Below are positions 1 through 19,445 of a DNA stretch of 54,091 nucleotides, one piece after another. The notes under the pieces are model-generated. The model was given only the letters and a program-made list of their open reading frames with translations. It had not been told where the DNA came from and did not search any database. The position numbers and the translations under genes are program-made. Each line of letters opens with the position of its first letter. Positions within the stretch are counted from its first letter, which is position 1. The stretch lies in the NCBI GenBank assembly GCA_025455065.1, contig JALONG010000029.1, forward strand, positions 1 through 54,091, given 5' to 3'. The stretch is from Candidatus Kapaibacterium sp. (lineage in GTDB: Bacteria; Bacteroidota; Ignavibacteria; Kapaibacteriales; UBA4661).

Positions 1-57
1 ATTGCGAATCTTCGTTGTATCTCTACCAAGCCTGAGTTTATCGGGCTTTGGGTGTAA
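1..57 (+). CDS. possible 3' end of an upstream gene
   Basis: Frame 1 is open from the left edge to a TAA at 55-57, giving an 18-residue tail rich in hydrophobic residues. It may be the end of a gene lying outside the window. The stretch is too short to identify, and an open frame of this length can occur by chance. Confidence 0.2.
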   Translation: MANLRCISTKPEFIGLWV

Positions 58-90
58 ACCATTGAGAAAAAAATTAGTTATCTCTAAATT

Positions 91-2067
91 TTGTCTATTC
101 CAAATACACAACTACAAACATGGCTTAAAATCTACTCACTAGATATTCTTGAACAAACATTGCTGCAAGAATATTGTGCTTCCCATGCCCTAGAATGGCG
201 CAAAAGCACCGTTTTAAGTACATACTTCGCTGACAATGCCTATTCACCTTCATTAGCCAAGCATCTTGGGTTATTTTCGATTGATTCTTTATCTGAGCTT
301 GAGTCGTGCTTAGAGTTGATGATACCTGCCGAAGACCGCAAACTCAATGGTGCTTTTTTTACACCGACATATATTATTGATGCGATTGTGAACCGTTTGT
401 CACCACGTCCCGAGGAAACAGTTTTTGACCCAAGTTGCGGGAGTGGTGCATTCCTGCTGGGTGTAACTCGGTATATGATGAAGCAGTATCAAATGCCGAT
501 TCGACAGCTTATTCGAGAGAATATTTTCGGTGCTGATATTTTGCCGTATAATATCCGCCGTGCCAAAATTCTCCTCGCCTTGTTTGCTCTGCAACAAGGA
601 GAAATACTTGATGAAACTGACTTCCGGCTCACGTGTATTGATAGCTTGCAAGCGGATTGGAACGATATTTTTTCTCATTCAAAGTTTGACGTTGTTTTAG
701 GTAATCCTCCCTACGTGAAGTTCCAGGATTTATCTGATGTTCAGCGCGAAAATTTAGCAAAAAATTGGTCTTCGGTTGATAGCGGAACGTTTAATACCAA
801 CTTGAGTTGATAACTGTGCAAAAAAATCCGGCTTCAGTGGCACAGACATTCTTGTCTGTGCGAGTATTTATGCTGCTTCCAGAGAAAAGCACTTGGGTAT
901 GACCTTCTTTCGCAGCAGGGGCACTTAGGCTACATTACGCCAAATAACTATTTTACCTCGCTTGCAGGGGAATCTCTCAGAGATTTTTTTGAGCGTCGTC
1001 GTTGTATTGAGGAAATTTGGGATTTTTCGCACATCAAAGTTTTTGATGCTCAAACCTATACCGCAATTACCTTTCTCAGTAAGCAGCCAAACGAAAATAT
1101 CCTCTTTGACCGCATTGACACTCCTCAAACTCCTCAAGAATTTGTTGCCTCGCCACAGGTATCTTCTAACAGCTATGCTGCATTAGACAGAAAAAAATGG
1201 CGTTTGCTTCGGAGTGATGAACAGAATATTATTCGTGCTTTAGAATCAGCAAATACGCCGCTTTCAGAGGTTCTTGATATTAAGGTTGGCATTGCTACGC
1301 TCAAAGATGAAATCTTTTTTATTGATGGCTCGTATCAAGCAGACAGGTTTTATTTCAAAGAATGGCAAGGGCGTGAATACCCCATAGAATCAAGCATTAC
1401 CAAAGCTATTGTGAAAATTTCCGATTTTACGACCCAAGCAGAATGTGATGCTAATTCGCGGCGAATTATCTCGCCCTACACGGTAAAAAACAATACGGCA
1501 ACAATTATTGACGAAGTAATTCTCCGTGAACAATATCCCTTTTGCTACGAGTATTTGTGCGCTGTTCGGGACGAATTGGCAAAACGCGATAAGGGCAAAA
1601 TGAAAGGTGCGTGGTATGGATATGGACGAACACAAGGCATAGCCAAGCGCGGACGGAAGTTGATTACACCGACCTTCAGCAAAGAGCCGCGCTTTTTGCG
1701 CATTGACGATGCGGAAGCATATTTTTGCAACGGGTACGGATTATTTGTAAAAGAAGCACCCAATCAAGGCTTATTTGCTGATGTTTCGCCGCTTACACGG
1801 TTAGAAAACTTAGATGTGGTACAGAAAATTTTGAATTCAGGAATAATGCACTACTACGTTACACGAACAAGTGTGAGCATTGAAGGCGGTTACTATTGCT
1901 ATCAAAAAAACTTTATCGAAAAATTCACACTTCCGAGTATTTCAGATGTAGAAATTAAGGAAATACGCGCCTTACAAGACCATATTGCTATTGATGAGTA
2001 TTTGTGCGGTTTATATGATATTCCCGCTTCATCTGTCATCAAAGCGGTCGGTGTAAGTGTGGAGTAA
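91..2067 (+). pseudogene. broken N6-adenine DNA methyltransferase (Eco57I/TaqI type)
   Basis: This would have methylated adenine as the protective half of a type II R-M system. The first part (91-810, TTG start) has the SAM-binding motif region DPSCGSGAF and the catalytic motif NPPY in VVLGNPPYVKF. It hits TGA at 808 and TAA at 811. From about 892 to 2067 the same frame is open again and continues the methyltransferase (LGYITPNNYF), followed by a TaqI-like C-terminal specificity region. The segment of about 90 bases between the halves contains a hairpin repeat found again at 54034-54091. Both halves are in the same frame, so the inserted or replaced DNA, not a frameshift, destroys the gene. 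The 3' end overlaps the convergent endonuclease-like gene by 39 bases. The C-terminal piece (ATG at 1204) could still be translated but lacks the catalytic domain. Confidence 0.85.
834..891 (+). repeat. family D hairpin repeat, copy 1
   Basis: A 58-base block matches 54034-54091 in inverted orientation at 57 of 58 positions. It holds a 9-bp perfect stem (GCACAGACA / TGTCTGTGC, 840-861) with a TTCT loop. It lies inside the disrupted methyltransferase. ACTTG occurs at 800-804 and again at 891-895, a possible short target duplication, but removing that unit would shift the reading frame, so the true ends are unsure. Confidence 0.85.
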
Positions 2068-3084
2068 ATGTGGTACGAAGTTAGTAAAAATGAGATTTTC
2101 GATAGTTGCTGGAGAAGATTGCGGTAACAGCCCGTCACGCTTCAAATCGTCGGTTTTTGTGTACACAAGCGGCTGCTTTTTACTGAAATCCACCAGAAGC
2201 AAGCATACTTTTTCGTATTTGTATTCGTCTCCTTTGTAGTTCTCGTTTCTTGTTGTTATGCGGTTATTGAGTGCCTTGAATCCCAAGACATATTTTTCCA
2301 CATTCTGTACGCTGCGAACAAACTGAATTTCATGGTGTGCAGCCGCCGCAGCGTCGTACTCGTACACGGGAATCAAGTAAACCTCACCGCAACACATTCG
2401 TGGACATCGCAGATGCAGGTTGAGTGCCTCTGCAAAGGTGCGCTCATACATCGGTCAAAGTTTTTTGATAAACTGCTCAGTTGGCTGCGAACATTAATAG
2501 AAACTATGCGCTCGGTGTATTTTTTGCCAAATTCATCTTGCTGACCGATAAGTAAGCCGTTGGTCAAAACCTCTGAATGTTGCTCTATATCATGTGGCAC
2601 AACGCAAATATCTTGGTCTTTTCGTTTGAGGAAACCTGCTACCGCGAGTTCACCATTACTTTCACCCAAAGCAGGTTTGATACGGTCTTGAGGAATACCG
2701 TTCCTTTGTAATTCAGCTTTTACCACATCATGCAGGAGTTTGATAGGTTTTTGTGAGCGAATGAGATTATTTTTTCCTTGTTCGCCGCCTTGCAGTATGG
2801 CTGTTTCTATCAGGCGTTTGAACTCTTGGAGTGCTTTGGGGAGGGTTAGATTTGGTGTTTTCACTGAGAGCAAACGATTCGTGATCGAAAAAATCTCGCA
2901 AAGAAATATTGAGCGCACGAGCAATTTTTTCGATATTTTCAATCGAAATATTTCGTTTTCCGTTCTCCACACTGCCGATATAGGTGCGGTCTAAATCGCA
3001 GAGAAACGCCAAATACTCCTGACTGAGTTTTTGTGCCTTGCGGAGTTCGCGGATTCGTGCGCCGATGGTATCTTTGATATTCAT
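2029..3084 (-). pseudogene. frameshifted HTH-fused restriction endonuclease-like gene
   Basis: The first ~70 residues (start codon at 3084) form a Xre/controller-type helix-turn-helix domain: IRELRKAQKLSQEYLAFLCD, then a recognition helix in DRTYIGSVENGKRNIS. The coding sense then continues in a second frame from about 2870 to about 2450 and in a third frame to 2029, so there are two frameshifts. The downstream part is soluble, shows no membrane segments, and contains an AERTF/LHLRCP region followed by GEVYLIPVYEYD and KVCLLLVDF. I do not recognise the family. Convergent 3' overlap with the adenine methyltransferase makes the cognate endonuclease the best guess. Neither frameshift lies in a homopolymer, so decay is somewhat more likely than sequencing error. 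The fusion of a C-protein-like HTH to the nuclease would give autoregulation. Confidence 0.6.
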
Positions 3085-3109
3085 AATGCGCGTAAAATCG
3101 GGATATGAT

Positions 3110-3135
3110 GACTTTATGACAACGGACTTTACGTC
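3110..3135 (-). promoter_or_regulatory. C-box-like operator upstream of the HTH gene
   Basis: Two 11-base copies, GACTTTATGAC and GACTTTACGTC, are separated by AACG, 26-51 bases upstream of the HTH gene start. Controller proteins of R-M systems bind paired GACT/AGTC-type boxes at this kind of position. The assignment is by resemblance and location only. Confidence 0.4.
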
Positions 3136-3168
3136 ACATTTTTAGAAAAATCAGATTGAAAAAGTGTA

Positions 3169-3414
3169 ATGCAAACCTCACCAAATCTACACGCAGAGAT
3201 TTCTGAGCCGATGCTACGTGAATTACAAGGTATCGCCGAATAAGAACACAGCACGATTGAACAACTTGCCCTGACCGCGATACGGGAAAAGGTTTCCGCG
3301 TTGGTGCATGACGACTACATCCGCACCCGCGCAGAACGTAGTAGCCGTGCGGCGTTTGAGGAGGCATTGGCGAGTGTTTCTCGGCAGGAGCCGGAGGAGT
3401 GGAATAGGATTTGA
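3169..3414 (+). pseudogene. antitoxin-like small gene with an in-frame stop
   Basis: An ATG at 3169 opens a frame that runs to TGA at 3412-3414, interrupted once by TAA at 3241-3243 (codon 25). The product, reading through the stop, is about 80 residues. It has the features of a small antitoxin-like protein: LRELQGIAE, then STIEQLALTAIREKVSALV, a charged DDYIRTRAERSSRAAFEEAL helix, and an ending like PEEWNRI. No toxin gene lies beside it. It looks like a relic. The minus-strand open frame over this stretch is less protein-like. Confidence 0.55.
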
Positions 3415-3494
3415 CAGAATATTCCATCGTTGTTTTCCTGCTTATCACTAATTTAATGCTATAATTCTAGCATCTTTCACAGATACATAAAATT

Positions 3495-4670
3495 ATGAAA
3501 TGGCGTTGGGACCAAGGTCGCTTAGACTATCTGCGTTTTGAGAATATCCGCTCTATTGCGCGGTGTTGTTATGACCTAAATGGTGTAAACCTCAAACAGA
3601 CTGACGATATTTTACGTCCTGCGTTAGAACGCGCTACTACGCTGCCTTTTGCACCAAAGCACTATAAAGTTTGGCGAAACTATGGTCGTGTGTTTGAATG
3701 TGCGATGGTAGCAACAGACTTGGGTGGAAGGCTCACCATTACTGATATTGGAAAGCGTTTGGCGGAAGATGCGGAGTGGACAGTTGATGAATATATTGCT
3801 GTGATTATTACACGCTTTGCCTATCCCTATCCTGCCTTTCAGGACTATGCCGTGTCGCTCACTCCCGTCTTCCCATTCTGTGCGATTATTCGGTATCTCC
3901 TTGCTTCTTTGATGACTGGGAAGTCTGCAAAAATAACGGTGGAAGAGGTGTTTTCCATCTTGATTGGCAATAATGCGCAAGGTACAGAATCACTTGATTT
4001 TTTCGCACAATTACGCCCGACTGACGTAAAACCACAAGGCGACGAAGAACGCCAAGTGCGAGAAATGCTCATTTTTTTGAGCCAAACGAATTTCTTAAAA
4101 TGGTCAGCAGGCTCACTGTTCCTAGACATTGAAGCAAATGACACGGAAAGCATTGCTCAAATCGAAGCACTTGCCTCACCAATGTTGCGAACACGCGAGC
4201 CAATAACACAAGCAGAAATACTCTCTTGTGCAAGTCTTCAAAGCGATACTATCCTCATAATGCCGACATTGACAACACGCGAAACTACTCTGGATGCCGT
4301 GTTTACTGAAGGTAAGCGCATCCGTACCGAGCATTTACGCCTTGAGCGCAGCCCGCGCCTACGAAAACTTTATTTTGCCCAAGCCCCAAAACCCCATAAA
4401 TGCGATATGTGTACTGGCAATATGCAGACACGCTACCCTTGGACGGATAATATCCTTGAATTGCATCATCTTTTACCACTTTCCTCCAGCCTTACCATTA
4501 CCACCAAAGGCACATCACTGGCGGATGTTGTGCCGCTTTGCCCAAATTGCCACCGCAGTATCCACGTATTCTACAAAAACTGGCTCAATAGCGAAAATCT
4601 GAATGATTTTCGTACTCCATCGGAGGCATTCAATATTTACAACACCGCAAAACAACAGGTACAGATATGA
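3495..4670 (+). CDS. HNH type II restriction endonuclease
   Basis: 391 residues. The C-terminal ~90 residues form an HNH nuclease: a first zinc-knuckle pair CDMC at about 302, the core LELHHLLPL at about 321, and PLCPNCHRSIH at about 349. The N-terminal 300 residues look like winged-helix DNA-reading domains (an FENIRSIARCC start, then TITDIGKRLAEDAEWT). The stop codon overlaps the start of the m5C methyltransferase (ATGA, 4667-4670), so the two are translationally coupled and most likely form an R-M pair in which the nuclease cuts sites the methyltransferase protects. The gene appears intact. The recognition sequence cannot be read from the protein. Confidence 0.8.
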   Translation: MKWRWDQGRLDYLRFENIRSIARCCYDLNGVNLKQTDDILRPALERATTLPFAPKHYKVWRNYGRVFECAMVATDLGGRLTITDIGKRLAEDAEWTVDEYIAVIITRFAYPYPAFQDYAVSLTPVFPFCAIIRYLLASLMTGKSAKITVEEVFSILIGNNAQGTESLDFFAQLRPTDVKPQGDEERQVREMLIFLSQTNFLKWSAGSLFLDIEANDTESIAQIEALASPMLRTREPITQAEILSCASLQSDTILIMPTLTTRETTLDAVFTEGKRIRTEHLRLERSPRLRKLYFAQAPKPHKCDMCTGNMQTRYPWTDNILELHHLLPLSSSLTITTKGTSLADVVPLCPNCHRSIHVFYKNWLNSENLNDFRTPSEAFNIYNTAKQQVQI

Positions 4671-5896
4671 CCGTACTTTCACAGCTATCGCTCAAACATC
4701 AAACAGACATTTTACAACGCTGCATTCGTGAAAACCTCGACTTAAACGAGGAACTTCAACGCGAAGGCTTAGACTACGAAATGCTTCGATACCGCACCAA
4801 CACTACCAGAGAAAAGCCATATTCCGGGCTTTTTGACACAACTCATTATACCTTACCATATCAAACGCCAGAGGATTTTGATTTTGCACTGCATGGTGTA
4901 CCGTCAGTGAGCTTTTTCTCTGGTGCAGGTGGCTTAGATACTGGGTTTCATTATGCTGGCTTCGCGCATGTTGCCTCTGTCGAGCATAATGCCCTTTTCT
5001 GCGAAACACTACGCCACAACCACCCAACGTGGACGGTCATTGGACCACCAGAACAAAGCGGTGATGCGCGTCATCACGAGGAAATAGCTTCCGAACTGCG
5101 TAAGGCTGGCGTAAAAGTGCCGTTTGAGGGGGTTTTTCATGGCGGACCGCCGTGTCAGCCGTTTAGCATTGCTTCCAATCAAAGGTTTTCCAAAAATAGC
5201 GACAATTTCAAGCGCATCGGCTTCGCCAATGAGGAGCATGGCGGTTTGTTGTTTGATTTCGTTTGGTTTATTAAAGAATTTCAACCACGTGTGTTTTTAA
5301 TTGAAAATGTCGCCGGATTGCTCAGTGTCGGCGAAGGTGATGAACTCGCACAAGCATTGAAGATACTCCGTGAAATTGGCTATACGTTTACTCACCCAGA
5401 AGTCTTCAATGCGGCGGATTATGGTGTTCCGCAAAGTAGGCAAAGGGTGTTCATTGTTGGTATTCGTGGCTCTGGCAATCCGTTTGTTTTTCCCCCTAAA
5501 GAATCTGCTATTGTGCCGTGTGGCGCGGCATTTGAACGACCTTTAGACGGCGTTGCAAATCATCTCACCCGCCAACACAAGGCAGAATCCGTGCTGCGGT
5601 ATATGGAATTGGACTTCGGGCAGCGCGACGCGCTTGGACGTGTTGATAGGCTTGACCCTGAACGTGTCTCCAAAACCGTGATTGCAGGCGGTGTAAAGGG
5701 AGGCGGACGATCACATTTGCATCCTTTCATTCCGCGTACTATTTCGGTGCGCGAAGCCGCTCGATTACAAACATTTCCCGATAGCTACGTTTTTGTTGGA
5801 CCTGTTGCACGCCAATTCACCCAAGTAGGGAACGCCGTTCCACCACTTTTGGGAATGAAATTAGCACGAGCAATTTTTGAAACTCTTTATGATTGA
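4667..5896 (+). CDS. DNA (cytosine-5)-methyltransferase, first of operon
   Basis: 409 residues, transferring methyl from SAM to C5 of cytosine. All core motifs are present: motif I FSGAGGLDTGF (84-94), catalytic PCQ loop GGPPCQPFS with Cys163, motif VI ENV (213-215), motif VIII QSRQRVFIVG, motif IX region ISVREAARLQTFP, and motif X QVGNAVPPLLG near the end. An ~80-residue N-terminal extension precedes motif I. The start overlaps the HNH endonuclease gene by 4 bases, and its stop overlaps the TTG that could start the next methyltransferase. It is likely the protective partner of the HNH enzyme. Confidence 0.95.
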   Translation: MTVLSQLSLKHQTDILQRCIRENLDLNEELQREGLDYEMLRYRTNTTREKPYSGLFDTTHYTLPYQTPEDFDFALHGVPSVSFFSGAGGLDTGFHYAGFAHVASVEHNALFCETLRHNHPTWTVIGPPEQSGDARHHEEIASELRKAGVKVPFEGVFHGGPPCQPFSIASNQRFSKNSDNFKRIGFANEEHGGLLFDFVWFIKEFQPRVFLIENVAGLLSVGEGDELAQALKILREIGYTFTHPEVFNAADYGVPQSRQRVFIVGIRGSGNPFVFPPKESAIVPCGAAFERPLDGVANHLTRQHKAESVLRYMELDFGQRDALGRVDRLDPERVSKTVIAGGVKGGGRSHLHPFIPRTISVREAARLQTFPDSYVFVGPVARQFTQVGNAVPPLLGMKLARAIFETLYD

Positions 5897-5904
5897 GAAA
5901 CCCC

Positions 5905-6006
5905 ATGCCTGAATTCATCCACCTCCACAACCACACCCACTACTCCCTCTTGGACGGTGCAGCCACACCCGAAACACTGCTCAAAGCCGCTTCTGAGCAG
6001 GGACAT
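5905..6006 (+). repeat. duplicated 5' end of dnaE (other copy 8109-8210)
   Basis: Codons 1-34 match between the two copies at 94 of 102 bases. The eight differences are mostly in third positions. Protein similarity fades out after about codon 40 (GHKAAPLT against GHTAVALT). A shorter resemblance extends just upstream of both ATGs (GAGAAACCCC against TAGAAAAACC). The methyltransferase and nuclease genes lie exactly between the copies. Confidence 0.95.
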
Positions 6007-7203
6007 AAGGCGGCTCCATTAACAGTCTTGGACACCTTTGCTGGCGCGGGCGGTTTTAGTTTAGGCTTTGCATTAGCCGGCTATACTGTTGGAGGGGCAA
6101 TAGAAATTGATAAATGGGCGGCTGAAACATTTCAGCATAACCACCCTGAATCGCAAATGCTTATCGGAGCTATTGAGCAATACTCAGATGAAGAAATCCA
6201 GGAAAAATATTTGCCCATGCGCCCGAACATTCTTTTAGGTGGTCCGCCATGTCAAGGGTTTTCAATAGCAAATAAACAAGCAGGTGATCCCAATGACCCA
6301 AGAAATTCATTATTCATGGAATTCGTCCGCATAGCACGATTACTTGAGCCTCAATATCTTATCTTAGAAAACGTTCCGAATATTGTGAAGTCAAAAAATC
6401 ATGCAGGGGAATTTGTCATTGATATTCTTCGACGCGAAATTGAGGCATTGGGATATATCGTCTATCATTCGATTCTTGATGCTACACATTTTGGCGTTCC
6501 TCAGATACGGAAGCGTTTTTTCCTGATTGCCTCTCGGCACGAACTATTACAACCCTTCCCATCTGCAACACATACACTCATAGAAAATGAATCACCAATG
6601 TTTGGTTCTGACAAATTGCCCTGTCCAACGCTTTGGGATGCAATTTCTGATATGCCTGTGATTGAAGCAGGCGAAGGAAGCGAGGAAATGTGCTACTCTC
6701 AAGCTCCGCAAACTGTGTATCAAGAAATGTTGCGGCACAATGCAAATGCCGTTCACAATCACAAAGCAATGAAGCACTCTAAACGAATGGTTGAGCGTTT
6801 TGCGGCTATGTCGTGGGGTGATTCCGTTGCTGATGTGCCCGAGCATTTGCGACCATTTGCAAGAAATAGTAACGGTAAAATCTCTGATAAAGTTTATGAC
6901 CAAAATAATCGAAGAATGTATCCCCATAAGCCTTGCCATACTATTCCTGCCTCATTTTATGCTAATTTTGTCCATCCATATTTGCATCGTAATTTTACCG
7001 CACGAGAAGGCGCACGAATTCAATCTTTTCCCGATTGGTATGTGTTCAAAGGCAAGCCGACAGTCGTAAGCCAAAAACTTTTACAGCGCGAAGAGCGAAC
7101 AGATGAAAAATTTATTTGTCAGTATAGCCAAATCGGTAATGCTGTTCCGCCACTTCTGGCAAAAGCGATTGCACAAAATCTTCTCCAACAAATCAAACAA
7201 TAA
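5905..7203 (+). CDS. DNA (cytosine-5)-methyltransferase with a DnaE-derived N-terminus
   Basis: 432 residues from ATG 5905. Residues 1 to about 40 are not methyltransferase: they repeat the DnaE N-terminus (IHLHNHTHYSLLDGAATPE, including the PHP HxH motif), and 94 of the first 102 bases match dnaE at 8109. The methyltransferase begins at about residue 41: motif I FAGAGGFSLGF (45-55), catalytic GGPPCQGFS with Cys116, ENV, GVPQIRKRFFLI, and QIGNAVPPLLA near the end. An in-frame TTG at 5893 overlaps the previous stop, but ATG 5905 corresponds to the dnaE start and is preferred. The 40-residue leader has only the first PHP motif, so it should not hydrolyse anything. It probably supplies the translation start. 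The gene ends 2 bases before the Bpu10I-like nuclease gene. Confidence 0.93.
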   Translation: MPEFIHLHNHTHYSLLDGAATPETLLKAASEQGHKAAPLTVLDTFAGAGGFSLGFALAGYTVGGAIEIDKWAAETFQHNHPESQMLIGAIEQYSDEEIQEKYLPMRPNILLGGPPCQGFSIANKQAGDPNDPRNSLFMEFVRIARLLEPQYLILENVPNIVKSKNHAGEFVIDILRREIEALGYIVYHSILDATHFGVPQIRKRFFLIASRHELLQPFPSATHTLIENESPMFGSDKLPCPTLWDAISDMPVIEAGEGSEEMCYSQAPQTVYQEMLRHNANAVHNHKAMKHSKRMVERFAAMSWGDSVADVPEHLRPFARNSNGKISDKVYDQNNRRMYPHKPCHTIPASFYANFVHPYLHRNFTAREGARIQSFPDWYVFKGKPTVVSQKLLQREERTDEKFICQYSQIGNAVPPLLAKAIAQNLLQQIKQ

Positions 7204-7205
7204 TA

Positions 7206-8075
7206 ATGCACGTTCACGGCGATAATCTCCAACAAAAAGAACAGCATACAAGCAAATACCTTGATGCTGAGTCAAAGCAATACCTTTCTGAAATTCGACA
7301 CCAATACGAAATTTGGCGTAGCCAAAATGAGGTATTGAAAGGTCCGAGCATTGAAAAGAGTACCATAGATGCGGAAATTCTACAGAAACGAGTTGCTGCA
7401 TTTGCTACATACAAAGATTTTCTAGACCAACAACATTATGCGGAAAAATTTGACTCGCGCTCAAATCTTCATTCCTCAGTCTTAGAGGAATTTATGTTTT
7501 ATCTCTTCCGAGATATTGCATACAGCTTTTCACAACAAGCACTTCTTGGCAAATCTCATACGTTCAAAGATATATTTTTCATGCCCTCGAATTTTAAGGA
7601 GATGGTCGCTCAACCATCTGCTCGTATAGAGAAAAAAGACCATGATTTTGTTATTGGGGCTTCTGTACAAGCGCGGTTTCAAACCGCAGGCAGCAACACT
7701 GTAGAAGAGCATCTTTTTCATATTCCCGCAATTGCTATTGAGTGTAAAACCTACCTTGATAAAACCATGCTCGAAGGCTCATCTACTGCTGCCGAACAGG
7801 TGAAAATACGGAGTCCCAACGCGCTGTATATCGTTGTTGCCGAATGGCTCAAACTTACAGAATCTGTCAATTTGCGCAAATTCAAAGTAGATCAAATTTA
7901 CATCTTGCGTAAGCAGAAAAATACAGACCGTGAATTTCGTTACTTGTCTACCTACACGAAAAATCCAGTTTTTGCCGATGTAGTGGAACATCTCTTTAAC
8001 ACAGTACGCACCCACTTGACAAGCGAATGGGAGAGTGGTATTTCCTTTGGTTTGGAACGCGGATATTTGCTATAA
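7206..8075 (+). CDS. Bpu10I-like type II restriction endonuclease
   Basis: 289 residues. A PD-(D/E)XK-type core is visible: KDHDFVIG followed by PAIAIECKTYLDKTMLEG at about 173-190, in which Asp of the first strand and Glu-x-Lys (ECK) would bind metal. The next segment, ALYIVVAEWLKLTE with VDQIYILRKQKNTDRE, matches my recollection of the Bpu10I restriction endonuclease family; this is from memory, not a search. It follows the second m5C methyltransferase by 2 bases and ends 33 bases before dnaE. Bpu10I-type enzymes can be heterodimers with two methyltransferases, but the only other nuclease here is of the HNH type, so two separate R-M pairs are the simpler reading. Confidence 0.7.
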   Translation: MHVHGDNLQQKEQHTSKYLDAESKQYLSEIRHQYEIWRSQNEVLKGPSIEKSTIDAEILQKRVAAFATYKDFLDQQHYAEKFDSRSNLHSSVLEEFMFYLFRDIAYSFSQQALLGKSHTFKDIFFMPSNFKEMVAQPSARIEKKDHDFVIGASVQARFQTAGSNTVEEHLFHIPAIAIECKTYLDKTMLEGSSTAAEQVKIRSPNALYIVVAEWLKLTESVNLRKFKVDQIYILRKQKNTDREFRYLSTYTKNPVFADVVEHLFNTVRTHLTSEWESGISFGLERGYLL

Positions 8076-8108
8076 TTTCCTCACTAGAAAACTCCTTTTA
8101 GAAAAACC

Positions 8109-11100
8109 ATGCCCCAATTCATCCACCTCCACAACCACACCCACTACTCCCTCTTGGACGGTGCAGCCACACCCGAAACGCTGCTCAAAGCCGCCTCAGC
8201 ACAGGGACACACCGCCGTCGCGCTCACCGACCATGGTGTGATGTTTGGCACGTTTGAGTTTTACAAAAAAGCGAAGAAGTACAATATCAAGCCCATTCTG
8301 GGTTGCGAGCTGTACATCGCTGCCGGAAGCCGCTTCGATAAGACTTCCGGGAAAACCAAGACCAAAAATTATTATCACCTCATCGCGCTGGCGAAAAACA
8401 ACAAAGGCTACGAAAACCTGATGAAACTGAGTTCCATCGGGCATACCGAAGGTTTTTATTACAAACCCCGCATTGACAAAGAAGTGCTGGAGCAGCATAG
8501 CGAGGGTTTGGTGATTACCTCCGCGTGTGTGGGCGGCGTGTTGGGGGCGCATTTTGTGAATCACGACTACGACAAAGCCCGTGAGGAAGCCGTTTGGTAC
8601 AAAGAACGCTTCGGTGAGGATTTCTACGTCGAGGTGCAACAGCACTTTATTGATTTAGACAAACCCGTGTTGGAATATGCCCCAAAGCTGGCTTCAGAAC
8701 TCGGTTTGAAGATGGTTGCTACGAATGATTGCCATTACATCAAAAAAGAACACGCCACCGCGCATAACGTCCACCTCTACATCAAAGACGCTTCGCAGGC
8801 AAACGCCGGAACGCTTGATGTAACGCGCCTTCGCTACGGTACGCCAGAATATTATTTCAAAACCGCCGACCAAATGGCGGAACTTTTGGGACACCTTCCG
8901 GGGGCAATCGAAAATACGCTCGAAATCGCGGAAAAATGCAATGTCAATCTCAAGACCGATTTGCATATGCCGGAGTTCCCCATCCCTCCTGAATCCAAGG
9001 CGACAAACCTTGATGAATACATGGAGGAACTCACGTTCAAGGGCATCGAAAAACGCTACAATGTGGCGGACTACAGCGCGGCAAGCACGGAAGTACGCGA
9101 GCGCACGGAGTTTGAACTCGGCGTTATCAAAAAAATGGGCTTTGCGGGGTATTTCCTCATTGTGCAAGATTTCATCAATGCGGCAAGGAATATGGGCGTG
9201 AGCGTCGGTCCGGGGCGTGGCTCTGCTGCCGGTTCTCTCGTTGCATATGCGCTTGGCATTACGAATGTGGACCCGCTTCAGTACGACCTCCTTTTTGAAC
9301 GCTTTTTGAACCCCGACCGCGTTTCTATGCCTGATATTGACGTGGATTTCAACGACGAGCGACGCGAGGACGTGATTGAGTATGTCCGTCAAAAGTACGG
9401 TGAAAACTCTGTTGCACAAATTATCACCTTCGGAACGCTTTCAACGAAAGCCGTTATCAAAGACGTGGCGCGGGTTCTGGGGATTCCACTCGCTACGGTG
9501 GATCAAATCACGAAGCCCATTCCGACGATTTTGGGAAAAGTTACCCCGCTCAAAGAAGCACTCGAACTCCCTGAACTGCGCTGGATTAAAGAGGCGAATG
9601 ACCCCAAACTGAACCAACTCATTGAGTACGCCTCCGTGTTGGAAGGCTTTGCGCGGAACTCCTCGCTCCATGCGGCGGGCGTGGTGATTGCTCCGGGTGA
9701 TATTTCGCAGTACGTTCCGCTCTACAAGTCGGATTCTGGCTTGGCAACACAGTACAACATGAAGGATTTGGAAGACGCGGGACTGCTTAAAATGGACTTT
9801 CTGGGGCTTCGGACGCTTTCGATTATTGACAATACCGTTGCAATGATTGAACGGAATCACGGTGTAAAAATTGATGTAGATGCACTGGATTTATTCGACA
9901 AAAAAACCTACGAAATGCTGAGTGCGGGAAAAACGCTTGCCGTGTTCCAGTTTGAATCCGAGCCGATGCAGAAGTATTTGAAGATGCTCAAACCCACGAA
10001 TCTTGAGGATTTAACGGCGATGAACGCGCTCTACCGTCCGGGTCCGATGGGCAACATCCCCGATTTTTGCGACCGCAAGCAAGGAAAGCAAGCAATCACG
10101 CTGCTGCATGAGAAGATGGAACCCGCTCTGCGTGCCACTTACGGCATTATCGTCTATCAGGAACAAGTAATGCAACTTGTACGCGACCTTGCGGGATTCA
10201 GTCTCGCGCAAGCCGACATCATGCGCCGCGCAATGGGCAAAAAAGATGCGAAACTCATGGCGGAGCAAAAAGAGGCATTTATCAAAGGTGCGAAGGATGT
10301 GCATGGAATTGATGCGAAATTGGCAGGAGAAATTTTCGATTTGATTGAAAAGTTCGCCAGCTATGGTTTTAACAAGTCTCACGCGCTTGCGTACTCGTAT
10401 TTGGCGTTCCAAACCGCATGGCTTAAAGCGCATTATCCGGCAGAATTTCTTGCAGCGAACATGACAGCCGAACTCGGCAACCTTGATAAAATCGTGGCGC
10501 TGATTGATGAAGCAAAATATTTCGGCATTGAAGTTCTGCCGCCGGATGTGAATGAATCCTTTGCGAGCTTTACCGCTATTCCCCCAAAACCAAGTAACCA
10601 AGACCCAAGCAACCAAGTAACCAATGGCAAAATCCGCTTCGGTCTCGCCGCTATCAAAAACGTTGGAGAGGGAGCAGTGGAAAGTATCATCCGAGCAAGG
10701 AATGAAGCGGCTTTTACGTCGTTTTTTGATTTTGCAAAGCGGGTGGATACGAAGGCAGTAAACAAGCGGGCTTTAGAGGCATTGGTGTGTGCCGGTGGCT
10801 TTGATTCGCAGAATCTGGGGCATCGCGCACAACTTTTCGCAGCGATTGACGACGCAATCAAATTTGGCAATGCCCAAAGCAAGGAAGAAGATACGGGCAT
10901 GGACAGCCTGTTTGGTGCGGCTGATGTGCCGATGGTTTCCGAGCCGAAACTGCCCACCGTACCGCAATGGAGCTATTTCGAGCAGCTCAAACGGGAGCGT
11001 GAGTTTTTGAACTTCTATGTGAGCGGACACCCGCTAGAGCGCTACCGTCCTCACGTGGAGACCTTTGCGACGCTACAACTTGGGCAAAAAAACAGTCCGC

Positions 11101-11627
11101 TTATTGGCAAAAACGTGCGTGTGTGCGGTATTGTGAGCGGTGTACGAACAAAATTGGACAAGAAAGAACAGAAAATAGCGTTTGTGCAAATTGAGGACTT
11201 TTCAGGTAAAGCGGAGTGCATTTTTTGGAGTGATTCCTATGCACGATTTCAACACTTGCTCACGGAAGACACGATTCTGATGGTTTCGGGGAAATCACAA
11301 ATTGACGGCTCGGATTCGCTGAAAATTGTGGTGGATGATGTATTCCCGATAAGCGAGGCGGCATCACGCTTTGCGAAGGGGGTCAAAATTGTTGCTTCGC
11401 GCCAGCGCACCAAACCGGAAGCCGTCAAACAGGCGCGGCGTATTGTCGAGGCGCATCCGGGCAAGGCGGAAGTGCTGTTTGTGGTCTATGACGACAACGC
11501 GCACGACGGCTTAAAACCTATTGCTCAGTACCGCGCAAAAGAACTGCGCTTTGCTCCGGATGATGCTGCAATCGAAGAACTGATGCGCCTTTTCGGACAT
11601 AAGCAGGTGAAGTTTTGGTTGGAGTAA
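8109..11627 (+). CDS. dnaE: DNA polymerase III alpha subunit
   Basis: 1172 residues, the usual size for DnaE, the replicative polymerase of the DNA polymerase III holoenzyme. Domains in order: N-terminal PHP (HLHNHTHYS, then ALTDHG), polymerase palm with GPGRGSAAGS and the metal-binding PDIDVDF at 408-414, fingers (NALYRPGPM, FNKSHALAYS), tandem HhH region, and a C-terminal OB fold (RVCGIVSGVRTKLDKKEQKIAFVQIEDF). Intact. It follows the Bpu10I-like gene by 33 bases, so R-M transcription may read into it. No clear Shine-Dalgarno sequence is seen. A low-complexity segment PKPSNQDPSNQVTNG near residue 827, encoded by heptamer repeats, interrupts a normally short loop before KIRFGLAAIKNVGEGA. Confidence 0.98.
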   Translation: MPQFIHLHNHTHYSLLDGAATPETLLKAASAQGHTAVALTDHGVMFGTFEFYKKAKKYNIKPILGCELYIAAGSRFDKTSGKTKTKNYYHLIALAKNNKGYENLMKLSSIGHTEGFYYKPRIDKEVLEQHSEGLVITSACVGGVLGAHFVNHDYDKAREEAVWYKERFGEDFYVEVQQHFIDLDKPVLEYAPKLASELGLKMVATNDCHYIKKEHATAHNVHLYIKDASQANAGTLDVTRLRYGTPEYYFKTADQMAELLGHLPGAIENTLEIAEKCNVNLKTDLHMPEFPIPPESKATNLDEYMEELTFKGIEKRYNVADYSAASTEVRERTEFELGVIKKMGFAGYFLIVQDFINAARNMGVSVGPGRGSAAGSLVAYALGITNVDPLQYDLLFERFLNPDRVSMPDIDVDFNDERREDVIEYVRQKYGENSVAQIITFGTLSTKAVIKDVARVLGIPLATVDQITKPIPTILGKVTPLKEALELPELRWIKEANDPKLNQLIEYASVLEGFARNSSLHAAGVVIAPGDISQYVPLYKSDSGLATQYNMKDLEDAGLLKMDFLGLRTLSIIDNTVAMIERNHGVKIDVDALDLFDKKTYEMLSAGKTLAVFQFESEPMQKYLKMLKPTNLEDLTAMNALYRPGPMGNIPDFCDRKQGKQAITLLHEKMEPALRATYGIIVYQEQVMQLVRDLAGFSLAQADIMRRAMGKKDAKLMAEQKEAFIKGAKDVHGIDAKLAGEIFDLIEKFASYGFNKSHALAYSYLAFQTAWLKAHYPAEFLAANMTAELGNLDKIVALIDEAKYFGIEVLPPDVNESFASFTAIPPKPSNQDPSNQVTNGKIRFGLAAIKNVGEGAVESIIRARNEAAFTSFFDFAKRVDTKAVNKRALEALVCAGGFDSQNLGHRAQLFAAIDDAIKFGNAQSKEEDTGMDSLFGAADVPMVSEPKLPTVPQWSYFEQLKREREFLNFYVSGHPLERYRPHVETFATLQLGQKNSPLIGKNVRVCGIVSGVRTKLDKKEQKIAFVQIEDFSGKAECIFWSDSYARFQHLLTEDTILMVSGKSQIDGSDSLKIVVDDVFPISEAASRFAKGVKIVASRQRTKPEAVKQARRIVEAHPGKAEVLFVVYDDNAHDGLKPIAQYRAKELRFAPDDAAIEELMRLFGHKQVKFWLE
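10589..10624 (+). repeat. ACCAAGY heptamer array inside dnaE
   Basis: Degenerate tandem 7-mers (ACCAAGT, AACCAAG, CCCAAGC type) are translated in frame as SNQ/PSNQ repeats. The same heptamers occur at 13102-13200 and 28602-28637 in unrelated genes and in other reading frames. Confidence 0.7.
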
Positions 11628-12941: not shown

Positions 12942-14342
12942 ATGTTCAAATCCGCTTCATTACGGTGTTGCTTGAACTTACTCACCGAATGTACTTCGGT
13001 GAAAGCCTTGCTGTTCTTACTCCCTATTGCTGTTATTGTTTCCGAACTTGAAGCAAAAGAGCCAAAAAAGAAAACAGCATCCCAACAAGCCTCCACAAAG
13101 AAAACCAAACCTCAAACGACCAAGCGCACAAGCCCCAAGTCCCAAGCAACCAAGCACCAAGTAACCAAGTCCCAATCTACCAAGCCCCAAGCAACCAAAC
13201 AAGAACTCGCCACTATTCGGAAAGCTATTGAGCGCGACAAAGCCAAATTACGCGAAGTAAAACAGAAAGAACGTCAGGTTTCATCGAAGTTGCAGCAGAT
13301 TCGGCAAAAAGACGCTGCGGTTTCTGCAACGCTACAAAAACTCACAACCTCGCTTCAGCGTGTGCAAGATTCGATTCGTACTGCCACACAGCGCATTAAT
13401 ACTGCATCGGTCAGTGCCGCCATGTTGCGCCGCGAATATGCGGATTTGGCATATACCGTCAGTCGTGCCGATGCCCCACTGACCGATGAAATGATGCTTG
13501 GTGTGGTTTCCATGCCCGAAACGGCACTTTGGGAAGGCACGATGAAGCATCTCAGCTACGCTGCTTTCGGGAAAATCGCTGAGTCCGACAAACGGCGTGA
13601 TTCCTTGGCTGAAGTCAAAGAGCGCTTTGCGACAAAGCAAACGGAGACCGCTGCGCTGAAAGCAGCAAAGGAAGCAGAGAAAAATAAGGTGCAATCCGCG
13701 CTTACAGGCAAAACGAAGGAGTTACAATCCGTTCAAGCCGACAAGCAGGAACTTATTCGCCGCTTGGAAGAACGTAATGCCAGCGCTCGGAAGCTGGAAG
13801 CGATGATGAATACGCTTGTGAACAAATCAGAAAGCGGAAAAACAGATGCTGCGAAGCATAATTCCACGATGATGAAAAACGCCAACAAAGGGGACGACAA
13901 CAGCAAAGAACAATCCGCAATTGAAGCCCGCGCAGCCAGCCTGAAAAGCGGCTTCCGTCGCCATTCGCTGCCTTGGCCCACCGACAGCCGTACTATTTTA
14001 CACAAGTTTGGGCGTTACACCAATCCTGCCACCGGAACATTGATTGAAAATTTGGGTATCGGTATCGCTTCCAAGAGCGGAAGCAGTGTTCGTGCGGTTG
14101 CGAAGGGGGTTGTGTCGCTGGTGAATTGGCTTCCGGGTTATGGTTCGCTGGTTATCATTGACCATGGGAATACCTTTCGCACGGTCTATGCAAATCTCGC
14201 TTCGGTGAGTATTCAACAAGGACAAACGCTCAAAGCAGGCGCAGTGCTGGGGCGGAGCGGTCGCTCGGTGGATGGAGAATATCTACACTTTGAACTGTGG
14301 CACGACCGCGATAAATTGAATCCTGCTGTGTGGTTGGAGTGA
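12942..14342 (+). CDS. EnvC-like murein hydrolase activator (degenerate LytM/M23)
   Basis: About 466 residues. Order: a hydrophobic signal (ALLFLLPIAVIV), a Lys/Thr/Gln-rich low-complexity segment encoded by heptamer repeats, long coiled coils (ELATIRKAIERDKAKLREVK onward), and a C-terminal LytM (peptidase M23) fold from about NPATGTLIENLGIGIAS to YLHFELWHDRDKLNPAVWL. The catalytic zinc ligands are missing: the first His/Asp position reads NLGIGI and the HxH pair reads YLH. This is the pattern of EnvC/NlpD-type proteins, which switch on cell-separation amidases instead of cutting murein. The start is uncertain: TTG 12912, ATG 12942, or GTG 12999, the last giving the most compact signal peptide. 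Confidence 0.85.
   Translation: MFKSASLRCCLNLLTECTSVKALLFLLPIAVIVSELEAKEPKKKTASQQASTKKTKPQTTKRTSPKSQATKHQVTKSQSTKPQATKQELATIRKAIERDKAKLREVKQKERQVSSKLQQIRQKDAAVSATLQKLTTSLQRVQDSIRTATQRINTASVSAAMLRREYADLAYTVSRADAPLTDEMMLGVVSMPETALWEGTMKHLSYAAFGKIAESDKRRDSLAEVKERFATKQTETAALKAAKEAEKNKVQSALTGKTKELQSVQADKQELIRRLEERNASARKLEAMMNTLVNKSESGKTDAAKHNSTMMKNANKGDDNSKEQSAIEARAASLKSGFRRHSLPWPTDSRTILHKFGRYTNPATGTLIENLGIGIASKSGSSVRAVAKGVVSLVNWLPGYGSLVIIDHGNTFRTVYANLASVSIQQGQTLKAGAVLGRSGRSVDGEYLHFELWHDRDKLNPAVWLE
13102..13200 (+). repeat. ACCAAGY heptamer array inside the EnvC-like gene
   Basis: About a dozen degenerate heptamers (CCCAAGC, AACCAAG, CACCAAG, TAACCAAG, CTACCAAG) are translated as a Thr/Lys/Gln/Ser-rich spacer between signal peptide and coiled coil. 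The repeat type is shared with dnaE and the giant secreted protein. Confidence 0.75.
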
Positions 14343-17975: not shown

Positions 17976-19445
17976 ATGAAAAAGCACATTTCCAAACTTG
18001 ACGACCTCGTGCAGGCAGCCCGCACCGAAGCGCCCGTTGTGTCTTTCGAGGAAACAGCGCGACAGATTGCATCATTGGAGGAAAAACGTCGTAAGCCGCT
18101 TTGGACAATGCTTCGTGATGCGTATGCGTTCCCACTTCGGCAGATGCAGTATTGGAAGGGCGCATGGAATCTTGAGGGATTGGCACAAAGCACCTTTGCA
18201 AAAGGCGCTTTTGTACGCGGTTTCGCGGGAGTATGTGCTGTGATGCTTGTTATGGCAGTGTTTCCCGCGCTTATTCACGATTTATCTTTGCCGGAAATTC
18301 GCTTGGAAAATATCGTTTCTTCCGAAATAGCACCAATGCCCAATACCGTATCAAAACAGATGTTCGCGGATGTTCTGCCTACAAAATCTTCAAACGAAAA
18401 ATCTTCGATGTCACTTTCAACATTATCGGCAAAAAATACTCCGCCGAACAGCCCTGAAAGTAGCATTGCTGCTTCATTCCCTGTTGCCGTTATTGCGGAC
18501 AGCGTAATTGAGCAATCCAACGCATCGTCAAACCCATCATCAAAAACATCATCATTGGCTGAACACGGTATCAATAGTGACGTAAACACCCCACTTAACA
18601 ATCATTTGCGAAAAAATTCTGCGGATATTGCGTTAGCTGCAACCGCACTGCCGGAACAAGAACGCAATTCTTCAAAACAGTATAATTCTTCACAAAAGAA
18701 CAATGCCTCTACGCAAGGTGCAGAGCGCTCGTTAGGGCAAGTAGAAACGACGATATTTGCTCCAAACGAACAGCCGACATTTTGGCAGCGTTTATCGCTG
18801 GAAGCCCGCATGGCTGCTCGCACAGACCTTGCTGTCAGCGCAGCATCCAACGAGAGCGTTGTTTTTGCTGCTGACCAAAACCAACAGGCATTTTCCTCGC
18901 AAAATACCGCCGCAACGCCGCTTCAAAACATCGCATTGGGGATGTATTACGCTGTTTCCAATGAGCATACCATCGGCATTGAAGGCGGCTCGGAGCCGTT
19001 TTTTACGGCGCAAATGCAGCGTGTGGCATCGAACAATAACGTTGTAAATTCAATGAATTCAATGACCAATACTCCAACGGGTATAGTTTCTATGCCTTCA
19101 AATACCGTCGGCATCAATCTTGCGCCTTCACAAGGCACTGGCTCACGCTCACTAGATGTTGCCGTGCGCACTGCCACCAACCGCACCTGGATTGGTGCAG
19201 CGTATCAGTATAATGCCGAAGCGTGGGATGTTCTGGGAGGCGTGCAGCCCTTAGCCCGCATCACGCTTGGCGGCGGCGAGTTAGGCGCAGTTGGGCGGAC
19301 ACTTGTCGGAGCGAAATTTCTCTCACGAGAGCGCTTTTCGTTTGTGCTGGCAGGTGAAGGTGCGGCAGTGGCAAGTCAGCTCTTGGGCGCATGGAATCTC
19401 ACGCCGCGACTTGGTGTGACGCTTGGTTTGTCGGTGAAATTTTAA
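17976..19445 (+). CDS. putative membrane anti-sigma/sensor with a barrel-like C-terminus
   Basis: 489 residues. Residues 1-78 are soluble and helical (DDLVQAARTEAPVVSFEETA), in the place of an anti-sigma domain. One membrane helix follows at about 79-101 (FAGVCAVMLVMAVFPALI). A Ser/Asn/Thr-rich linker of about 170 residues comes next, then from about 270 a region of alternating hydrophobic strands (LGMYYAVSNEHTIGIEGG, TWIGAAYQYNAEAWDVLGG, FSFVLAGEGAAVASQLLGAW) ending in LGVTLGLSVKF. A terminal Phe is usual for outer-membrane barrels. The reading as an inner-membrane anchor, periplasmic linker and small outer-membrane barrel is inference. I do not recognise a named family. It sits between the sigma factor and serpin genes. 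Confidence 0.6.
   Translation: MKKHISKLDDLVQAARTEAPVVSFEETARQIASLEEKRRKPLWTMLRDAYAFPLRQMQYWKGAWNLEGLAQSTFAKGAFVRGFAGVCAVMLVMAVFPALIHDLSLPEIRLENIVSSEIAPMPNTVSKQMFADVLPTKSSNEKSSMSLSTLSAKNTPPNSPESSIAASFPVAVIADSVIEQSNASSNPSSKTSSLAEHGINSDVNTPLNNHLRKNSADIALAATALPEQERNSSKQYNSSQKNNASTQGAERSLGQVETTIFAPNEQPTFWQRLSLEARMAARTDLAVSAASNESVVFAADQNQQAFSSQNTAATPLQNIALGMYYAVSNEHTIGIEGGSEPFFTAQMQRVASNNNVVNSMNSMTNTPTGIVSMPSNTVGINLAPSQGTGSRSLDVAVRTATNRTWIGAAYQYNAEAWDVLGGVQPLARITLGGGELGAVGRTLVGAKFLSRERFSFVLAGEGAAVASQLLGAWNLTPRLGVTLGLSVKF

Follow-up and report, generated by a model that had tools for sequence, protein, structure and literature searches.

A restriction-modification pair inserted at the start of dnaE in a Kapaibacterium genome, with probable capture of the dnaE start codon and related gene-end copies beside defense genes in its genus

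We conclude that a restriction-modification (R-M) pair has been inserted at the start of dnaE, the gene for the DNA polymerase III alpha subunit, in a draft genome of Candidatus Kapaibacterium sp. The stretch of DNA analyzed, here called the window, comprises 54,091 nucleotides (contig JALONG010000029.1, positions 1 to 54,091); within it, dnaE codons 1 to ~34 lie to the left of the pair and the complete dnaE lies to its right. Judging from the reading frames, the methyltransferase of the pair has likely lost its own start codon and is likely translated from the ATG of the partial dnaE copy. Related insertions at dnaE and at other housekeeping genes point to acquisition of defense genes without an integrase. 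The explanation that we consider best overall, and moderately probable, combines insertion of the R-M pair at dnaE, probable capture of the gene start, and entry, anchored by homology, of DNA from a relative's dnaE locus.

The two copies of the dnaE start form a direct repeat of 113 bp with 91% identity (positions 5893 to 6005 and 8097 to 8209, both on the forward strand, as are all features described here), which covers about -12 to +102 of the gene and includes ~12 bp of leader before the ATG. The right copy is the start of an intact dnaE, assigned by Pfam (8109 to 11627, 1172 amino acids [aa]). Counted from both ATGs, 94 of 102 bases are identical between positions 5905 to 6006 and 8109 to 8210, and our recount thus agrees with the first-pass annotation of this DNA; the best other 102-bp stretch on the forward strand of the window matches at 47 of 102 positions, and the mean is 25.4. 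With positions 5893 to 6100 as the query, a search of the whole draft genome (E value up to 0.001) returned matches at both repeat sites only. The eight differences between the copies fall in seven codons and had been described, correctly, as mostly silent: five of these codons are changed silently, and the others give Q3E and A31E (copy relative to gene). They are unevenly spread, as bases 8 to 71 are identical, and a run of at least 64 has a P value of 0.002 under random placement of eight differences. Between the copies, the only open reading frames (ORFs) longer than 120 aa are those of the methyltransferase (5905 to 7203) and of its partner, a restriction endonuclease of the Bpu10I family (7206 to 8075; 102.6 bits to PF09549, for which the cut-off is 25). 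In positions 1 to 5900 of the window, no older remnant of the dnaE start or promoter scored above the highest of 40 shuffles.

The left dnaE copy opens a frame of 432 codons that runs, in frame, into a complete C-5 cytosine (m5C) methyltransferase. The product is a chimera of about 34 to 40 dnaE codons and a full core: Pfam finds DNA_methylase at residues 40 to 426 and a partial PHP match at residues 6 to 55, and, in agreement with the first-pass annotation, the core starts at the end of the repeat match. The closest homologues found, in metagenome-assembled genomes (MAGs) of Thiotrichaceae (locus L037, 66% identity) and Rickettsiales (L038, 61% identity), begin with MKVLDTFAG and MKFKILDTFAG, that is, with a methionine just before the core and without the leader. 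At the position of their start, the window methyltransferase reads ...GHKAAPLTVLDTFAG, and its frame holds no ATG or GTG between the dnaE ATG and the core. Because the only other in-frame ATG, GTG, or TTG codons before residue 85 lie at residues 16 (in the leader) and 42 (in the core), the dnaE ATG at residue 1 is the likely start; an additional in-frame TTG lies four codons upstream of this ATG. The earlier claim that the methyltransferase borrows the start and the leader of dnaE therefore holds for the frame, which opens with dnaE codons, and for translation from the dnaE start codon it stands as a likely reading. In L038, the gene after the methyltransferase is 64% identical to the window nuclease, and in L037 the ORF that follows is truncated by the contig end and resembles that nuclease by eye. 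The L037 pair (4888 to 5856 and 6359 to 8193) adjoins an integron integrase (TIGR02249, 441.9 bits) and is perhaps a gene cassette.

A relative supplies the state without the insert. Among eight genomes of the same genus, seven with a dnaE start, the one labeled G007 (others are labeled likewise below) has a single dnaE, and the homologue of the methyltransferase gene that lies upstream of the window copy (4667 to 5896; 86% identity over the 3' part) ends directly before it, so the window insert sits between that gene and dnaE. The 486 bp that precede the single dnaE of G007 show an 88% match to the bases ahead of the window copy. On this comparison of sequences, G007 is an empty site of the kind that the first-pass annotation had asked for in related genomes, and, together with the layout in the window, it bears out the proposal that the dnaE start received an R-M pair and that dnaE was partially duplicated.

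The same annotation wrote of one event, but such insertions recur at dnaE and at other genes. Extra copies of the dnaE start lie beside dnaE in four of the seven genomes (the window's, G002 with two in series, G003, and G004), five copies in total, each followed by R-M genes; G005, G006, and G007 have one dnaE start each. An insert found in both G002 and G003 holds an m5C methyltransferase, a restriction endonuclease, and a small C-like ORF (recognized by eye). The other G002 module holds two N4/N6 methyltransferase ORFs and a protein of 766 aa; in this module (L089, 11376 to 15532), a 326-aa ORF has N6 and N4 methyltransferase matches in separate stretches, and the 766-aa protein has a 4Fe-4S motif and no nuclease match. 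In G004, the copy is followed by an ORF of 230 aa that has no matches and by an N6 methyltransferase that includes a type I specificity domain; it is preceded by genes for an AAA ATPase (AbiLi/AriA-like) and for a protein that matches HEC-01B weakly. Near the start of a G002 contig, away from dnaE, there is also an eroded copy of the dnaE start (~79 bp; L096, G002:C179), which adjoins an apparent C-gene remnant (by eye) similar to one in the window.

It could be supposed that these contigs are chimeras joined at repeats during assembly, as the genomes are drafts in many contigs and the G003 copy lies at a contig end. Such an artifact is scarcely credible, given that the layout recurs with different cargos, that G002 and G004 match separately deposited records, and that the G007 empty site matches the left flank of the window. 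Outside the genus, among the matches listed from 123 genomes of the order (E value up to about 3e-7), there was no second strong dnaE-start match; the second matches listed there had ~30 to 50% identity and lay mostly in other long or ~300-aa frames, and a few single matches lay in short frames (e.g., in G117, G030, and G040). A scan of 52 loci from genome contigs returned mainly dnaE-like starts and two leaderless methyltransferases. The locus that spans both parts most fully (L039, the G002 locus) has the copy and the methyltransferase adjacent and unfused, and in L041, the G007 contig, the methyltransferase end and dnaE are separate. The leader is absent from both homologues; a methyltransferase that carries it far from dnaE, which would have refuted the origin first proposed, did not appear among these 52 loci or in 10 genomes of the family.

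Of the dnaE-adjacent copies, only that of the window is fused to a methyltransferase; the frames of the remaining four are closed by stop codons. This bears on the idea that the leader was kept for functional coupling, by which methylation would be tied to dnaE expression or the enzyme would carry a PHP-derived tail. The frame has been kept open, most of the codon changes are silent, and the methyltransferase's own start codon seems to be lost, all of which would suit such a role, but leader and gene are only 102 bp and eight changes apart, the remaining copies are unfused, and the predicted structure of the chimera (three sequences) has a mean pLDDT (predicted local distance difference test) of 53, too weak to judge. 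We consider coupling quite unlikely.

The end points of the copies within dnaE vary, lying at about +79, +98 to +102, +192, and +196, and the G002 repeat extends from -131 to +102. A site-specific joint at exactly +102 was considered and rejected: the joints lie at ~+98/99 in G002 and G003 and at +101/102 in the window (or reach +120 with weak similarity), and positions that differ by a few bases make only a near coincidence, not an exact site. More generally, an integrase-driven genomic island with the dnaE start as its attachment site would explain why the same gene end was used repeatedly and why the dnaE joints of two unrelated R-M units fall a few bases at most from +98 to +102. We find this very improbable, as the end points vary, the target genes differ, and no integrase was found among the ORFs of >120 aa between the dnaE copies of the window.

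The joints suggest how the DNA may have entered. In G002 and G003, the dnaE copy is joined at ~+98 to the interior, in the 3' half, of a small antitoxin-like gene, the intact form of which encodes 81 aa and follows a PIN-like ORF (both names by reading); the intact relative gave no credible Pfam match. In these two genomes, one end of the insert is joined illegitimately. Sequence of this small gene occurs at five places in the 10 family genomes, four of them upstream of dnaE (in G002, in G003, at positions 3310 to 3408 of the window, and on contig C20 of G004), which suggests that the G002/G003 insert came as part of the dnaE locus of a relative. Some of the copies are also mosaics. The dnaE copy of G004 nearly equals that genome's own gene for ~120 bases and has a G007-like end (over bases 151 to 180, 28 of 30 are identical to G007 and 22 of 30 to its own gene). 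At thrS, another site of such copies, the first 33 bases of the partial copy in G005 equal its own thrS, and bases 39 to 64 agree with G007 at 21 of 26 positions and with its own thrS at 14 of 26. As proof of donor origin the G005 case is weakened, however, since three species have this joint in common and the intact thrS of G005 is a mosaic too. In dnaE, the first 300 bp, compared with bases 500 to 1378, show an excess similarity of 7.3 points among the four copy-bearing genomes (six pairs) and of 1.3 points in 16 pairs of copy-bearing and copy-free genomes.

We propose, with less certainty than the insertion and the start capture, that the incoming DNA was a stretch of the dnaE locus of a relative, with R-M genes and the dnaE start beside them, and that it was anchored by homology to dnaE. 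One end would have been joined illegitimately, possibly directly (homology-facilitated illegitimate recombination [HFIR]); alternatively, the fragment may have closed into a circle that was taken in through one crossover in dnaE. Either route would give the order gene-end copy, cargo, whole gene, with the essential gene kept whole; neither would need an integrase, and both would be repeatable.

The first-pass annotation had instead invoked target duplication. Partial duplication of dnaE is evident, but it is not clear that plain insertion of an R-M unit with a long target duplication explains the data best: alleles of different species are combined in some of the copies, and the insert of G002 and G003 begins with a fragment found elsewhere beside dnaE-linked defense genes. 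In its favor, passages of PMC3874152 and PMC3031569 describe R-M insertions whose duplications are long and variable, on the order of 100 bp; some copies are nearly identical to their partners (G003 dnaE, 99%; G002 thrS, 98.5%; a tRNA-Asp copy in the window's own genome, 96%); and the last codons of metH in G003 seem to have given way to the insert. Having weighed both sides, we regard plain target duplication as rather improbable and prefer homology-anchored entry from a relative's dnaE locus.

Several points nevertheless weigh against the preferred account. The excess similarity at the 5' end of dnaE averages 3.3 points in the eight pairs that involve G005 and G007 alone (6.5 between the window's genome and G005), so constraint explains part of the similarity, and third positions in those pairs likewise show greater similarity at the 5' end (69.1 versus 60.5). 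The eight differences in the window would also fit an old duplication from a single source followed by conversion. Because it lies at the same place in three species, the thrS joint probably goes back to one old event that later spread. In G003 metH, where the last codons are apparently replaced by insert sequence, plain target duplication fits at least as well. Translation of a leaderless methyltransferase could begin at the TTG at residue 42. Lastly, HFIR in experiments generally yields deletions, not duplications, according to part of PMC3240628.

Copies of gene ends flank R-M loci at several other genes in the genus. The first ~70 bp of thrS form a flanking partial copy in G002, G004, and G005, and the sequence upstream of the intact thrS in G007 matches that upstream of the G005 partial copy (85% over 571 bp), which marks G007 as the empty site for the thrS insert as well. 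R-M loci in G003 are flanked by copies of the thrS 3' end and of the metH 3' region, and further R-M flanks are copies of the 5' ends of metH and of a hicB-like gene (by eye) and of the 3' end of a methylmalonyl-CoA mutase gene. The bracketing repeats in the genus measure 53 to 233 bp.

At acnA in the window's own genome (L101, G000:C126), there are inserts at both the start and the end of the gene, each with a partial acnA copy; the repeats (7960 to 8032 with 11477 to 11549, and 14088 to 14184 with 17989 to 18086) correspond to the initial 73 bp of acnA and to its 3' end, respectively. In G002 (L123, G002:C178, 6293 to 10546), four copies of the acnA 3' end alternate with modules, two of which have methyltransferases, and this series is a serial build-up. 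Three acnA 3'-end copies in G005 (L222, G005:C72, 2471 to 4746) bracket genes for an aspartate racemase and a hexapeptide transferase, a cargo which shows that this mode of insertion is not confined to R-M genes. A tRNA gene is affected likewise: in the window's genome, the 3' half of tRNA-Asp and its terminator are duplicated (L131, G000:C97, 3886 to 3983 and 9207 to 9303) and enclose a type III R-M system and no further listed ORF. In L127 (G002:C40, 6229 to 6299 and 8505 to 8575), the initial bases of the next gene (ATGGGGA) are reused by the gene that follows the mutase 3' end, which may be another, shorter instance of start capture. Of 36 loci from other genera, 4 were bracketed (L229, L234, L217, and L233). 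Two of these, from other families of the order, have serial repeats around an m5C methyltransferase, at a gene 3' end in L229 and upstream of ribosomal protein genes (by eye) in L234; L217 and L233 were not tied to gene ends.

Direct repeats as such do not mark R-M insertion. We defined a bracket as a repeat of 50 to 400 bp flanking a methyltransferase match, or the central ORF of a control locus, and tested 88 methyltransferase places (adjoining rows merged per gene; orthologous loci of related genomes are among the matches and are not independent) and 60 control loci; about 39 rows (8 of PF01555 and ~31 of PF02384), most with <60 bits, fell outside the methyltransferase set. Brackets of any kind were found at 21 of 88 methyltransferase places and at 10 of 60 controls (p = 0.31), and this candidate mark was therefore rejected. 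Brackets that hold an ORF start or stop occurred at 17 of 88 places versus 1 of 60 controls (p = 0.0007, by a criterion chosen post hoc), and the sole control case (L282) is a low-complexity repeat. The four control loci inspected (L171, L182, L267, and L282) contain paralogue-like neighboring coding repeats, low-complexity repeats, or dispersed palindromic repeats. Across all 234 control ORFs, 36 were bracketed, 6 of them at an ORF end; with the first 20 controls alone, the comparison stood at 21 of 86 versus 2 of 20 (p = 0.23), and that of the genus with other genera at 21 of 86 versus 4 of 36 (p = 0.14). Two loci counted as bracketed, L132 (a dispersed repeat) and L152 (a terminator-like repeat), are not taken as gene-end cases; the automatic rule includes L152 in the 17 and misses L090, L131, and L141, which we regard as genuine.

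From these loci we draw a broader and tentative proposal, to which we give rather less credence than to the account of the window itself: the ends of conserved housekeeping genes (dnaE, thrS, acnA, metH, and tRNA) may serve, in these bacteria, as homology docks for defense cassettes that, once located next to such a gene, carry a piece of its end. Such cassettes would enter relatives by that homology, restore the gene, accumulate serially without an integrase, and occasionally capture the start codon of the dock, as in the dnaE-methyltransferase chimera. The locus and its relatives present a series of states (empty, one insert, and two inserts) at one essential gene, with joints legible to the single base, and they permit a testable account that makes homology to an essential gene the driving factor. 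They also show how an immune gene could capture a host start codon, and a truncated copy of a housekeeping-gene end would be a simple signature for horizontally acquired defense cargo.

An older R-M unit lies to the left of the insert. Its m5C methyltransferase (Pfam) is the gene whose homologue adjoins dnaE in G007, and its presumed nuclease partner is an HNH protein (3495 to 4670; PF01844 exactly at the cut-off, with a weak match to a type IV restriction endonuclease). Before it stands a small pseudogene with an internal stop (3169 to 3414), antitoxin-like by context, whose 3' half is similar to the left end of a dnaE-linked insert in another species. Farther upstream, positions 91 to 2067 and 2767 to 3084 hold an N6 methyltransferase fragment (Eco57I/N6_Mtase match at 91 to 810), an ORF without matches, and an XRE-type regulator, which together look like an R-M graveyard at the contig end.

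The inserted pair is like the Bpu10I R-M family in that a PF09549 nuclease stands beside an m5C methyltransferase. Bpu10I needs two different nuclease subunits; unlike it, the window has one nuclease gene, and no second PF09549 nuclease ORF was found among the eight window proteins scanned. The minimal mobile elements of Neisseria are regions in which cargo, including R-M genes, is exchanged beside conserved genes without mobility genes of its own; we know of no systematic gene-end duplication in them.

A laboratory counterpart of the proposed entry comes from Escherichia coli, in which, according to parts of PMC3240628, 56 of 60 Lac- clones gave a PCR product diagnostic of partial lacZ duplication, and the duplications, of 109 to 950 bp in the 14 sequenced, were ascribed to a single crossover of circular molecules. 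HFIR and the crossover of circles as presented there resemble our case in that one end is anchored by homology and the other is illegitimate, and in that the homologous locus is partially duplicated. They differ from it in being laboratory reactions, whereas here the process is deduced from genomes, the cargo is defensive, and the same genes are reused.

The closest known phenomenon is the insertion of R-M genes with long target duplication (Nobusato et al. 2000 and Furuta et al. 2010, as cited in PMC3031569, PMC3874152, and PMC1643837); the passages on such insertions in PMC3874152 and PMC3031569 name no settled mechanism. The likeness lies in an R-M unit between direct repeats of ~100 bp (113 bp in the window), an empty site in a relative, and the lack of any mobility gene seen between the copies of the window. 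In the literature searched, which did not cover the primary papers on such insertions, we found no description of a methyltransferase with a captured essential-gene start or of R-M insertions in series at dnaE, each with a gene-end copy left behind. The window locus is thus a variant of this known type of insertion, from which it and its relatives differ in mosaic copies, in the joint to a fragment of the dnaE-locus type, and in cargo other than R-M genes at G005 acnA. What appears new is the apparent capture of a host start codon, the serial build-up at the same housekeeping-gene ends, and joints that suggest homology-based entry of pieces of relatives' dnaE loci.

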